NCBI RefSeq assembly: GCF_001083785.1
Contig: NZ_LAVL01000018.1
Location: 1 to 64,000 of the forward strand
Length of the DNA: 64,000 nucleotides
Source of the DNA: Nonomuraea sp. SBT364
Lineage (GTDB): Bacteria > Actinomycetota > Actinomycetes > Streptosporangiales > Streptosporangiaceae
Direction of reading: 5' to 3'
Shown here: piece by piece, positions 29,981 through 35,669 of the stretch
Layout: the number at the start of each line of letters is the position of its first letter
How positions within the stretch are numbered: the first letter of the stretch is position 1
Translations under genes and position numbers: made by a program
The notes under the pieces: model-generated
Told to the model about the DNA's origin: nothing
The model's database searches: none
What the model saw: the letters and a program-made list of their open reading frames with translations, nothing else

Positions 29981-30436
29981 TCACGGCATGGCGCTGCCGG
30001 GAGGGGCGTCGACGAGTCTGGAGAGCACGATGACGCTCTTGGTCCGCACCACGAACGCCTGCGCCGCGATGCGCTCGATCACCCGCTCCACGTGCCTGAC
30101 GTCGGTCGCCCGGATGTGCAGCAGCGCGTCCGCCTCGCCGGTGATCGTCGCCGCCCCCACCACCTCCGGGAACCGGGAGACGGCCAGCGCGATGTCGGAC
30201 GGTTTCGTCTTGCCCTGGCAGAACAGCTCGACGTACGCCTCGGTCGTCCAGCCGAGCGCCTGCGGGGCCACCCGGGCGCTGAAACCGGTGATCGCGCCGC
30301 TCTCACGCAGCCGGTCCACCCGCCGCTTGACCGCCGACGCGCTCAGGCCCACCTGCTGGCCGATGTCGGCATAGGTCTGCCTGGCGTCGTCGACGAGCGC
30401 CGCGATGATGTCACGATCCAGCCGGTCCAGTTCCAC
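29981..30436 (-). CDS. Lrp/AsnC family transcriptional regulator
   Basis: A 151-residue Lrp protein. The N-terminal HTH reads LDRDIIAALVDDARQTYADIG then GLSASAVKRRVDRLRESGAI. The C-terminal RAM domain spans ~65-145 (AYVELFCQGKTKPSDIALAV, then TGEADALLHIRATDVRHVERV). It lies 156 bases upstream of ddaH-rocD on the same strand and is the obvious candidate regulator of that arginine-related operon. It starts at GTG 30436; the divergent GH1-LacI gene shares the 87-base promoter region. Confidence 0.92.
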   Translation of the reverse strand: MELDRLDRDIIAALVDDARQTYADIGQQVGLSASAVKRRVDRLRESGAITGFSARVAPQALGWTTEAYVELFCQGKTKPSDIALAVSRFPEVVGAATITGEADALLHIRATDVRHVERVIERIAAQAFVVRTKSVIVLSRLVDAPPGSAMP

Positions 30437-30523
30437 GCGCTCTGTATACCGCCTGGACCTGTGGCGCGCGACGATCGCCTCCCGGCAGACTGGGCGCCTC
30501 TAACCCGCTGGAAGGTCGCAGTC

Positions 30524-32860
30524 ATGAGCAGCACGCAGTTTCCTGAAAGTTTCGTCTGGGGCGTTTCCACGTCCGCGTACCAGATCGAGGGCGCCAACGC
30601 CGTCGACGGTCGCGGCCCGTCCATCTGGGACTCCTTTTCCGACTCCCGGGAGGCTTGCGACCACTATCACCGCTATCCCGAGGACGTGCGGCTGATGAAG
30701 GAGCTGGGGCTGGGCGCCTACCGGTTCTCGGTGAGCTGGCCCCGGGTGATGCCCGAGGGGGCCGGCCGGGTGAACCCCGCCGGGCTCGGCTTCTACGACA
30801 AGCTGGTCGACGAGCTGCTGGGCGCCGGGATCACCCCGTACGTGACCCTCTATCACTGGGACCTGCCCCAGGCGCTGGAGGATCGCGGCGGCTGGCCGGA
30901 GCGTGACACGGCGCTGCGGTTCGCCGACTACGCGCGGGTGGTGCACGAGCGGCTGGGCGACCGGGTGGAGACCTGGTTCACGCTCAACGAGCCGTGGGTG
31001 TCGGCGTTCCTCGGCTACGGCGCCGGCATCCACGCGCCCGGCAGGACGTCGGCCGCCGACGCCTTCAGGAGCGCCCACCACCAGTTGCTCGGCCACGGGC
31101 TGGCGTCGGCGGCGCTGCGCTCGGCGGGCGCCCGCGAGATCGGCGCCGTGCTCAACTTCGGCCCCGTGATGACTCCCGGCCAGGTCATCGGCTCCACCCG
31201 CGAGCTGGCCGAGGAGGACGCCGACGCGGTGGCCAGGATCGACGACCTCATGCACGGGCAGTTCCTGGAGCCGCTGCTGCACGGCCGCTACCCCGAGCGC
31301 GTGATGGAGCTCGCCGGGACGGAGCACGTGCGCGACGGCGACCTGGAGGTCATCTCCGGGCCGCTCGACCTGCTCGGCGTCAACTACTACGCGCCGACCG
31401 TCGTGCAGGCCCAGCCCAGCGAGCCCGCCGACCCCGCCTACCCGGGCAGCGACGGCATCCTGTTCTGCACCGTGCCCACCGCCGTGACCGCCATGGGCTG
31501 GCCGATCGTGCCCGGCGGCCTCACGCTGCTGCTCGACCGGCTGACCCGGGAGTACCCGGGCCTGGAGCTGATGATCACGGAGAACGGGGCCGACTTCGCC
31601 GACTCCGTCACCGGCGACGGCGTGCGCGACGTGGACCGCATCCACTTCATCGAGGAGCACCTGCGCGCCCTGCGCACCTCCATCGAGCGGGGCGCCAAGG
31701 TGCGCGGCTACCTCGTCTGGTCGCTGCTCGACAACCACGAATGGACCGACGGCTACCAGCGCAAGTTCGGCCTGGTGCACGTCGACTTCGCCACCCAGAA
31801 GCGGCGGATGAAGGACAGCGCGCTGTGGTACCGCGACGTGGTGCGCCGCAACGGCCTCGGCGGCGACCGGCCGCGCCGCCCCACGCTGGAGACCGTCGCC
31901 GCCCGCGCGGGCGTCTCCCGGGCGACGGTCTCCCGCGTCGTCAACGGCGAGGTGTCGGTCAGCCCGGAGGTCCGCGCCGAGGTGCTGCGCGCGGTCCGCG
32001 AACTCGGCTACGTGCCCAACGCCGCCGCGCGCAGCCTCGTCACCCGCCGCACCGACGCGATCGCGCTGATCCTGGCAGTGCCCCGGCACGGCGGCGACGC
32101 GCTCACCGCCGCCGTCGTCCAGTACGTCACCAGTGTCCTGGAAGGCGCCGGGAAGCAGGTCACGCTCATGCTCGCCGACACCGCCGAGAGCCACCGGCGC
32201 ATCCTGCAGCGGGTGGAGACTGGGCTGCTCGACGGCGTGGTGCTGCTCCCGTCCGACGGCCCGGACCCGCTGGCCGAACGGCTGACCCGTACCGGCACGC
32301 CCGTGGTGCTGCTCGGCAAACCCGCGGTGGCCTCGCTGGTGCCGTACGTGGACGTGGACAACGCCGGCGGCGCCGTGGCCGCCACCGAGCACCTGCTGCG
32401 CCAGGGCCGCCGCCGCATCGGCCTGATCTGCGGCCCCACGGACCTGGTCGCCGTCCAGGACCGGCTGGCCGGCCACCGCGAGGCCCTGGAACGCGCCGGG
32501 ATGCGCCCGCACCTCGCGCTGGCCGGCCTCACCCGCGAGTCGGGCGCGGCGGCGTTCACCCGCCTGCTCGCCGAGGACGACCGCCTCGACGCCGTCCTCG
32601 CCACCAGCGACCACCTGGCGATCGGCGCCCTGCAGGCCGCCGCCGCGGCCGGCCTGCGGGTGCCCGCCGACCTGGCCGTCGTCGGCTTCGACGACATCGA
32701 CGCCGCCTCCGCCACCACCCCGCCGCTCAGCACCGTACGGACCCCCGTGACGGAGCAGGCGATGGCGCTGGCCAGGCTGCTGCTGTCGAGGCTGGAGGGC
32801 AGGCACGCCGGGTCCGTGGTGCTCCCGGCACGCCTCGTGGTGCGCGCGTCCAGCGATTAG
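30524..32860 (+). CDS. GH1 beta-glucosidase fused to a LacI family regulator
   Basis: One 778-residue frame. Residues 1-~445 form a complete GH1 glycosidase: FVWGVSTSAYQIEGA, YRFSVSWPRVMPEG, the acid/base Glu in TLNEPWVSAF, the nucleophile Glu in LMITENGADF, and LVWSLLDNHEWTDGYQRKFG. The family end, WYRDVVRRNGL, is not followed by a stop. After about six residues a whole LacI begins: HTH TLETVAARAGVSRATVSRVV (~453-472), hinge RELGYVPNAAARSLV, and a Peripla_BP_3 core to residue ~775 (GLICGPTDL, VVGFDDIDAASATTPPLSTV). Internal GTG codons at 31838 and 31841 could also give LacI alone, but no ribosome site is evident. Cytoplasmic. ATG 30524 follows GGAAGG. Confidence 0.9.
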   Translation: MSSTQFPESFVWGVSTSAYQIEGANAVDGRGPSIWDSFSDSREACDHYHRYPEDVRLMKELGLGAYRFSVSWPRVMPEGAGRVNPAGLGFYDKLVDELLGAGITPYVTLYHWDLPQALEDRGGWPERDTALRFADYARVVHERLGDRVETWFTLNEPWVSAFLGYGAGIHAPGRTSAADAFRSAHHQLLGHGLASAALRSAGAREIGAVLNFGPVMTPGQVIGSTRELAEEDADAVARIDDLMHGQFLEPLLHGRYPERVMELAGTEHVRDGDLEVISGPLDLLGVNYYAPTVVQAQPSEPADPAYPGSDGILFCTVPTAVTAMGWPIVPGGLTLLLDRLTREYPGLELMITENGADFADSVTGDGVRDVDRIHFIEEHLRALRTSIERGAKVRGYLVWSLLDNHEWTDGYQRKFGLVHVDFATQKRRMKDSALWYRDVVRRNGLGGDRPRRPTLETVAARAGVSRATVSRVVNGEVSVSPEVRAEVLRAVRELGYVPNAAARSLVTRRTDAIALILAVPRHGGDALTAAVVQYVTSVLEGAGKQVTLMLADTAESHRRILQRVETGLLDGVVLLPSDGPDPLAERLTRTGTPVVLLGKPAVASLVPYVDVDNAGGAVAATEHLLRQGRRRIGLICGPTDLVAVQDRLAGHREALERAGMRPHLALAGLTRESGAAAFTRLLAEDDRLDAVLATSDHLAIGALQAAAAAGLRVPADLAVVGFDDIDAASATTPPLSTVRTPVTEQAMALARLLLSRLEGRHAGSVVLPARLVVRASSD

Positions 32861-34114: not shown

Positions 34115-35524
34115 TCACGTGGTGGAGAAGGTGAACCAGTTGACGTTGACGAAGTCCGCCGGCTGGCCGCTGCTGAAGGTCAGGTAGACCGTGTGCGTCC
34201 CGGTGACCGGCGAGATGTTGGCCGGGATCGTGCGCCAGCTCTGCCAGCCGCCGGTGTTGCCGATCGCGAAGTCGCCGATCGGCGCGGCCGTCGGGCTGCC
34301 GAGGCGCACCTGGACGAGCCCGCTGACGCCGCCCCCCGCCCCCGACGCCACGCGCGCCTTGAACTGGTGGGCCGCCGTGGAGCCGAAGTTCACCCCGTCG
34401 AAGCGCAGCCAGTCGCCGTTGGCGATGGCGCCGACGTTCTGGCCGCCGCCGGAGTCGGTGGTGGTCTCGACCATCGTCCCGGACTGGGCCTGGTAGCGCT
34501 CGGCCTGGATGGTGGAGCGGGCGTCGACGCCGCCGGGCGAGGTGGGGGTGATCGTCGGCGAGGGCTGGGTGGTGCCGCTCTGCCACACCGCCACGTAGTC
34601 GACGACCATCGGCCGCCCCGGCACGGTGGCCGGGGTCGGCGTGCCGAAGCCGGCCACGCCGTTCGGGAAGCCGCCGCCCATCGCCACGTTGAGCAGCAGG
34701 AAGTAGCCCGCGTGACCGGTCATGTTGTTCCAGGTGCCGGCGTCGAACTGGGACTGGCTCAGGCTGTGGAACTGCTGGCCGTCCACGTACCACCGGAGCT
34801 GGTTGGGGCTGACGCTGCGGTCCCACTCGAAGCGGTAGGTGTGGAAGGACGACTGGCACGACGAGCCGGGGCAGGCGCGGCTGGCGCCCAGGCCGTTGGT
34901 CTCGTTGCACGGCCCGCCGGGGGTGACGCCGCAGTGCAGCACGGCCCACACGGAGTTGATGCCGTTGACGTTCTCCATGATGTCGAACTCGCCGATGCCC
35001 GGCCAGTTCCAGTAGTTGCCCCGGTACGGCGAGCCGAGCGCCCAGAACGCCGGCCAGTAGCCGAGTGCGGCGTCGCCGGTGACGTTCGGCATCTGGATGC
35101 GGCCCTCGATGCGCAGGACGCGTCCTTCGGCGGGCTTGAAGTCGGCCTTCCTGGTCTCGATGCGGGCCGACGTCCACTCGCCCGAGGAACTGCGCAGCGG
35201 GGTGATGCGCAGGTTGCCCGAGCCGTCGAGCGCCAGGTTGGACGGGCTGGAGGTGTAGTTCTGGATCTCACCGGTGCCCCAGTTGCCCGGCCCGCCGGGG
35301 TAGGCGTGCCCGGTGTCGATCTGCCAGTTGGCCGACGAGGGCGGTGAGCCGGAGGGGCCGTCGAAGTCGTCGGACCAGACCAGTGACCAGCCGGACGGGG
35401 TGGGCGGCACGGCGGCGGAGGCGCTCACCGCCACGTGCACGAGCAGGGCGCTGAGCACGGTCAGCGCGGCGGCGACCGCCGCGAGCCGGCGGCGGCCGGC
35501 GGTTCGTAGGGTACGTAACGTCAT
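34115..35524 (-). CDS. Secreted GH16 beta-glucanase with C-terminal CBM6
   Basis: A 469-residue secreted enzyme. The signal peptide runs from MTLRTLRTAGRRRLAAVAAA to SASA (residues ~1-36). The GH16 domain (~45-300) has WSDDFDGPSG, GYWPAFWALGS and the catalytic GEFDIMENVNG (nucleophile and acid/base Glu in ExDxxE), typical of laminarinases and endo-beta-1,3-glucanases. A Pro/Thr linker leads to a CBM6-type domain (~340-469: STIQAERYQAQSG, NGDWLRFDGVNFG). ATG 35524 has GGGAG six bases upstream. Two LacI-type operators precede it. Together with the GH1-LacI protein this suggests extracellular beta-glucan use. Confidence 0.93.
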   Translation of the reverse strand: MTLRTLRTAGRRRLAAVAAALTVLSALLVHVAVSASAAVPPTPSGWSLVWSDDFDGPSGSPPSSANWQIDTGHAYPGGPGNWGTGEIQNYTSSPSNLALDGSGNLRITPLRSSSGEWTSARIETRKADFKPAEGRVLRIEGRIQMPNVTGDAALGYWPAFWALGSPYRGNYWNWPGIGEFDIMENVNGINSVWAVLHCGVTPGGPCNETNGLGASRACPGSSCQSSFHTYRFEWDRSVSPNQLRWYVDGQQFHSLSQSQFDAGTWNNMTGHAGYFLLLNVAMGGGFPNGVAGFGTPTPATVPGRPMVVDYVAVWQSGTTQPSPTITPTSPGGVDARSTIQAERYQAQSGTMVETTTDSGGGQNVGAIANGDWLRFDGVNFGSTAAHQFKARVASGAGGGVSGLVQVRLGSPTAAPIGDFAIGNTGGWQSWRTIPANISPVTGTHTVYLTFSSGQPADFVNVNWFTFSTT

Positions 35525-35555: not shown

Positions 35556-35571
35556 GAGAGAGCGCTCTCTC
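35556..35571. promoter_or_regulatory. LacI-type operator, proximal site of GH16 gene
   Basis: A perfect 16-base palindrome GAGAGAGCGCTCTCTC, 32 bases before the GH16 start codon. The AGCGCT core matches LacI-family (CebR/BglR-like) operators of actinomycetes. Confidence 0.85.
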
Positions 35572-35657
35572 GCTCATGTGAACACATGGCTTAACCCGCT
35601 GTCAATAATCCGCCCGGACGGCTTGACGTGGGCCCGTCCGGACGCTATCTCTGATGA

Positions 35658-35669
35658 GAGAGCGCTCTC
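35658..35669. promoter_or_regulatory. LacI-type operator, distal site of GH16 gene
   Basis: A perfect palindrome GAGAGCGCTCTC whose centre lies exactly 100 bases from that of the proximal operator. Both sites are upstream of GH16, and this one is just downstream of the vWA gene's stop, so the pair could support looping by a tetrameric or dimeric LacI protein. Confidence 0.8.

Follow-up and report, generated by a model that had tools for sequence, protein, structure and literature searches.

A type of regulon in which an operon of ABC transporter, GH1 and LacI genes shares its operator palindrome with GH16 genes has already been published (Anderson et al., 2012; PMC3377646). In the sections of that study drawn on here, Catenulispora has the site TGAGAGCGCTCTCA both at its ABC-GH1-LacI operon and at two GH16 genes whose predicted products are endo-1,3-beta-glucanases, while sites of the form AGAGAGCGCTCTCT and GGAGAGCGCTCTCC are given for Thermobispora and Streptosporangium, respectively; the palindrome at the ABC-GH1-LacI operons of these regulons is the one found in our locus. 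The same sections describe neither a spacing rule for paired sites nor a fusion of GH1 with LacI, and a literature search for GH1-LacI fusions or laminarin-related LacI proteins in actinobacteria returned nothing specific beyond this paper. The CelR/CebR regulons, known from Thermobifida fusca, likewise combine a LacI-family repressor, encoded together with an ABC transporter and a GH1 enzyme, with an AGCGCT-cored palindrome at the repressor's own operon and at secreted glucanase genes. Two operators around a single promoter are in turn familiar from Escherichia coli, as lac O1/O3 and gal OE/OI, and in lac the spacing is helically phased, the period being close to 11 bp in vivo (PMC1762422), as it is in the promoters described below.

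The window analysed here, meaning the whole stretch of 64,000 nt, contains a gene for a secreted GH16-CBM6 protein, whose best PDB matches are the solved endo-1,3-beta-glucanases 7eo3 (E 6e-155) and 3dgt (E 3e-121), and a neighbouring gene in which GH1 and LacI are fused. The relevant features are:

30524..32860, plus strand: GH1-LacI fusion, conserved neighbour of GH16 (GH1, residues 4-444; LacI HTH, 454-499; sugar-binding domain to 777)
34115..35524, minus strand: secreted GH16-CBM6 endo-beta-1,3-glucanase (Pfam and PDB matches), the putatively regulated gene
35556..35571, no strand: downstream operator (Od), core GAGAGCGCTCTC at 35558-35569, perfect core in 48/48 orthologous promoters
about 35577..35582, minus strand: -10-like TTCACA within the conserved block TGTGTTCACATC, presumed position
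35600..35605, minus strand: -35 element TTGACA of the GH16 promoter, (nearly) invariant across the genus
35658..35669, no strand: upstream operator (Ou); second site, one mismatch or none, in 44/48 orthologous promoters

A sequence search of the 64,000 nt found exactly two copies of GAGAGCGCTCTC, at 35558-35569 and 35658-35669. Their centres, 35563.5 and 35663.5, are 100 bp apart, so that the pair of sites which a sequence-only reading had reported at this distance around the GH16 promoter holds to the base. The left site extends to a 16-bp palindrome, GAGAGAGCGCTCTCTC, whereas in the right one the palindrome is perfect over 12 bp. In dinucleotide-shuffled versions of the window 0.03 exact copies are expected by chance, and none of 100 such shuffles reached two or more. 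The genome-wide motif search that the same reading had proposed as a check returned 12 copies in the 9.98 Mb of genome G000, against none for the reversed control. Along the minus strand, Ou is followed in turn by TTGACA, the TGTGTTCACATC block, Od, the 5' leader and the GH16 start codon ATG at 35524. This core promoter is conserved throughout the genus, and a strict sigma-70 scan of it gave no match. Od covers approximately +1 to +12 of the predicted GH16 transcript, while Ou either abuts the -35 element or sits further upstream, immediately beyond the neighbouring gene's 3' end. The distance from the -35 element to Od is about 34-38 nt in nearly all orthologous promoters, and by this near-constancy Ou is the site that moves.

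By their flanking sequences the G000 sites fall into two groups. Class A carries AGAGAGCGCTCTCT-like flanks and includes both window sites; class B comprises the GGAGAGCGCTCTCC sites. Outside the window the sites are distributed as follows:

C298, class A: before a second GH16 gene, with F5/8C domains
C50, class A: before a GH3-CBM11 gene
C316, class A: between genes for a GSDH-CBM6 protein and a GH92
C361, class A: before an operon of SBP, permease, permease, GH1 and LacI (L020)
C139, class B, three sites: adjoining genes for secreted F5/8C proteins and for a GH3
C159, class B: between a GH3 and a different LacI
C214, class B: probable stray
C353, flanks of neither class: an isolated site within a coding region

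Class A would thus constitute a beta-glucan regulon with its own LacI encoded at C361. The GGAGAGCGCTCTCC sites appear as a second regulon that has a LacI and a GH3 of its own (L014, sites 9778, 9908 and 11338; L015, site 8577), where they adjoin secreted F5/8C and DUF1996 proteins. The earlier assignment of the window sites to AGCGCT-cored, LacI-type operators of a beta-glucan regulon was borne out by the motif itself, the content of the regulon, the dual layout, the conservation of the operator in 48 of 48 orthologous promoters and the published precedent.

The LacI gene of the C361 operon (L020:13062-14054, the latter part of a GH1|LacI pair at L020:11658-14054) carries TGAGAGAGCGCTCTCTCA at its own promoter, and a perfect operator was found in all 20 transporter-operon promoters examined. 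The best PDB match of this LacI is the LacI-family entry 5ysz, which we take to be T. fusca CelR. As in CelR/CebR-type systems, an AGCGCT-cored inverted repeat stands upstream of glucan genes and the regulator belongs to an operator-bearing ABC-GH1 operon; the CelR consensus TGGGAGCGCTCCCA, however, does not fit the sites here, which are AGAGAGCGCTCTCT-like, and CelR targets cellulases whereas the targets here are beta-1,3-glucanases. Judged by sequence, the regulator would be a CelR-related subtype rather than CelR. In other genera, namely Microbispora, Sphaerisporangium, Actinomadura, Microtetraspora, Streptomonospora and Nocardiopsis, the operon lineage is represented by a LacI near GH16 or directly adjoining it, with an operator upstream of GH16. 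The recognition helix of the G000 operon LacI has Ala where most of these GH16-adjacent homologues have Val.

Herbidospora and Acrocarpospora possess a GH1|LacI pair about 2 kb from GH16 (L249 4533-8901 and L231 4615-8879); the operators belonging to this pair are separated by 130-131 bp. A fusion was ruled out in these two genera, as GH1 and LacI are separate genes, and perhaps this unfused pair near GH16 represents the arrangement from which fusions arise. The fusion protein in the window is homologous over its full length to the C361 pair, at about 60% identity, and a single stop separates GH1 from LacI in that pair; the fusion therefore seems to have arisen when a duplicated gene pair lost its stop codon. 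It is present in most genomes of the genus. Its promoter contains a conserved TGGCCAGGCTGGCGCGCGACGAG-like block, and a conserved block, TGTATACCGCCTGGCCAGGCTGGCGCGCGACGAG, lies in the interval that separates the fusion from a divergent AsnC-type regulator upstream (30436-30524 of the window, and the corresponding promoters of orthologues). There is no LacI-type palindrome here, and no conserved AGCGCT-type palindrome that could serve autoregulation was found for the fusion.

The nearness of the fusion to GH16 had led the sequence-only reading to suggest it as the repressor, and the distribution of genes and sites in 54 genomes of the genus Nonomuraea, 48 of which have GH16, bears directly on that choice. 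If the fusion were the sole or main GH16 repressor on these operators, coupling oligosaccharide cleavage to sensing, its position beside GH16 in 41 of the 48 genomes would be readily explained, as would its conserved hinge helix and a recognition helix, SRATVSRVVNG, identical to that of several LacI proteins adjoining the same operator in other genera. Yet none of the 49 copies examined has an operator at its own promoter, and operators persist in six GH16 genomes that lack the orthologous fusion (G001, G035, G038, G041, G015 and G051, the last three carrying divergent fused copies elsewhere). G001 and G035 have six sites each without the fusion; loss of the operon LacI from these two was ruled out, since the gene was found about 3.4 kb from the operon's GH1. 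Conversely, the fusion is retained without GH16 in G003, G004, G032 and G048. In G004 and G048, where the fusion remains and the operon LacI is lost, there is no well-formed site: G004 has none at all, and the single site of G048 has the non-matching flanks CTG...GCG and lies near or in an ORF, although the losses in these two genomes may be a single event. G027, which has lost both proteins, has no site; G003 and G032, which have both but no GH16, each retain a single site, located at the operon, and two sites were counted in G039. The operon LacI (at least 86% identity) occurs in 51 of the 54 genomes, including all 48 with GH16, and is missing only from G004, G027 and G048, which lack GH16 as well. 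Promoter footprint, co-occurrence and loss patterns thus speak against the fusion as sole regulator and do not support it as the main one; that it is either we consider very improbable. Given the operator at its own promoter, the co-occurrence, the natural losses and the placement beside GH16 in other genera, the likeliest regulator would be the stand-alone, CelR-like LacI of the C361 ABC-transporter/GH1 operon. A secondary role of the fusion is possible, and an arrangement in which both proteins share the operators, with the operon LacI as the main repressor and the fusion as a further one that competes with it or is tuned by ligand, would extend the preferred explanation rather than exclude it. 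The nearly identical recognition helices within near-identical DNA-binding domains, the common ancestry of the GH1-LacI pairs and the strong synteny of the fusion with GH16 lend this arrangement some credit, but the fusion persists in genomes without sites and we hold it to be somewhat doubtful. The retention of the fusion even without GH16 or operators indicates that it has a role of its own.

The distance of 100 bp, which the same reading had stressed as exact, is true of the window but not of the genus: a fixed distance was ruled out by spacings of 53 to 102 bp in other species. In the 44 promoters with both sites, only 53-57, 63-68, 77-79, 88-91 and 98-102 bp occur, and sister genomes may differ from one another by a class or more (G000 100 and G009 89; G014 102 and G025 91; G050 99 and G031 77). 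It is the phase that is conserved rather than the distance, the spacing moving in steps of about one helix turn. The Rayleigh vector of the 44 promoters peaks at 0.75 at a period of 11.5 bp, with clusters 3-6 bp wide, and none of 5000 random sets reached the phasing of the unique spacing values; the phasing had been noticed in the very data to which this test and those below were applied. This period of about 11.5 bp matches the 11.60 and 11.08 bp per turn obtained from in vivo lac looping fits (PMC1762422). In principle Od alone could matter, with Ou a passive decoy or relic and the phasing a coincidence of shared ancestry; the spacing itself is indeed not conserved, and 4 of the 48 orthologous GH16 promoters lack a second site at the cut-off of at most one mismatch. 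Nevertheless, 44 of the 48 have one, nearly always perfect, and a quick tree built from the GH16 and fusion proteins requires 16 parsimony changes among the five spacing classes. Fourteen independent pairs on non-overlapping tree paths gave p 0.003 when the period was allowed to vary from 9.5 to 12.5, and simulation of unphased jumps and small indels on the tree gave p 0.0025 with the jump rate at its lowest and 0/2000 at higher rates, so that the phase null is rejected and we regard Od acting alone as unlikely. In many species a second, weaker operator accompanies the main one at the transporter-operon promoter, at an almost constant distance of 77-78 bp (L137-L156); in G001 and G035 this distance is 70 bp, which is out of phase. 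Elsewhere in the family, the dual sites of other genera are in phase at 89 and 98-99 bp and out of phase at 74 and 95-96 bp.

Taken together, we think it probable that Od and Ou serve as proximal and auxiliary operators for the sugar-sensing, CelR-like repressor encoded at C361, acting by phased cooperation. As Od overlaps the predicted start, a repressor dimer bound there should block initiation; without beta-glucan oligosaccharide it would cover the transcription start and exclude RNA polymerase, and a further dimer bound at Ou, always on the same helical face, would strengthen repression through dimer-dimer looping or phased contact. The phased spacing suggests helically phased repression, and argues for a short loop or a face shared with polymerase. 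Like lac, these promoters have a phase-constrained operator pair, but the lac repressor is a tetramer whereas the operon LacI, to judge from its sequence, lacks the tetramerisation segment: its 331 aa align to residues 2-327 of the 360 in LacI and leave no room for the tetramerisation helix. Bridging would therefore need GalR-like dimer contacts or another factor. GalR acts at gal as dimers, which the operon LacI would resemble more than the lac tetramer. Basal GH16 would release oligosaccharide, presumably laminari- or cello-oligosaccharide, which the operon's transporter would import and which would free the repressor, so that the two GH16 genes, the GH3 gene and the transporter operon would be induced jointly. 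We further put forward, as a plausible but still tentative conjecture, that a dimeric CelR-like LacI relies on phased two-operator cooperation, that whole-turn shifts of the upstream operator have recurred within the genus, and that its promoters thereby record an in vivo helical repeat of about 11.5 bp in an actinobacterium.

What is new here is the phase rule for the paired sites, together with the evidence against the fusion as a required regulator. A conserved dual-operator promoter is assigned to a specific, testable regulator, and this candidate is separated from the nearby fusion protein that had seemed the obvious one. The species-specific spacings constitute a natural series for studying how a LacI-family repressor without a tetramerisation domain might loop DNA or cooperate in phase.
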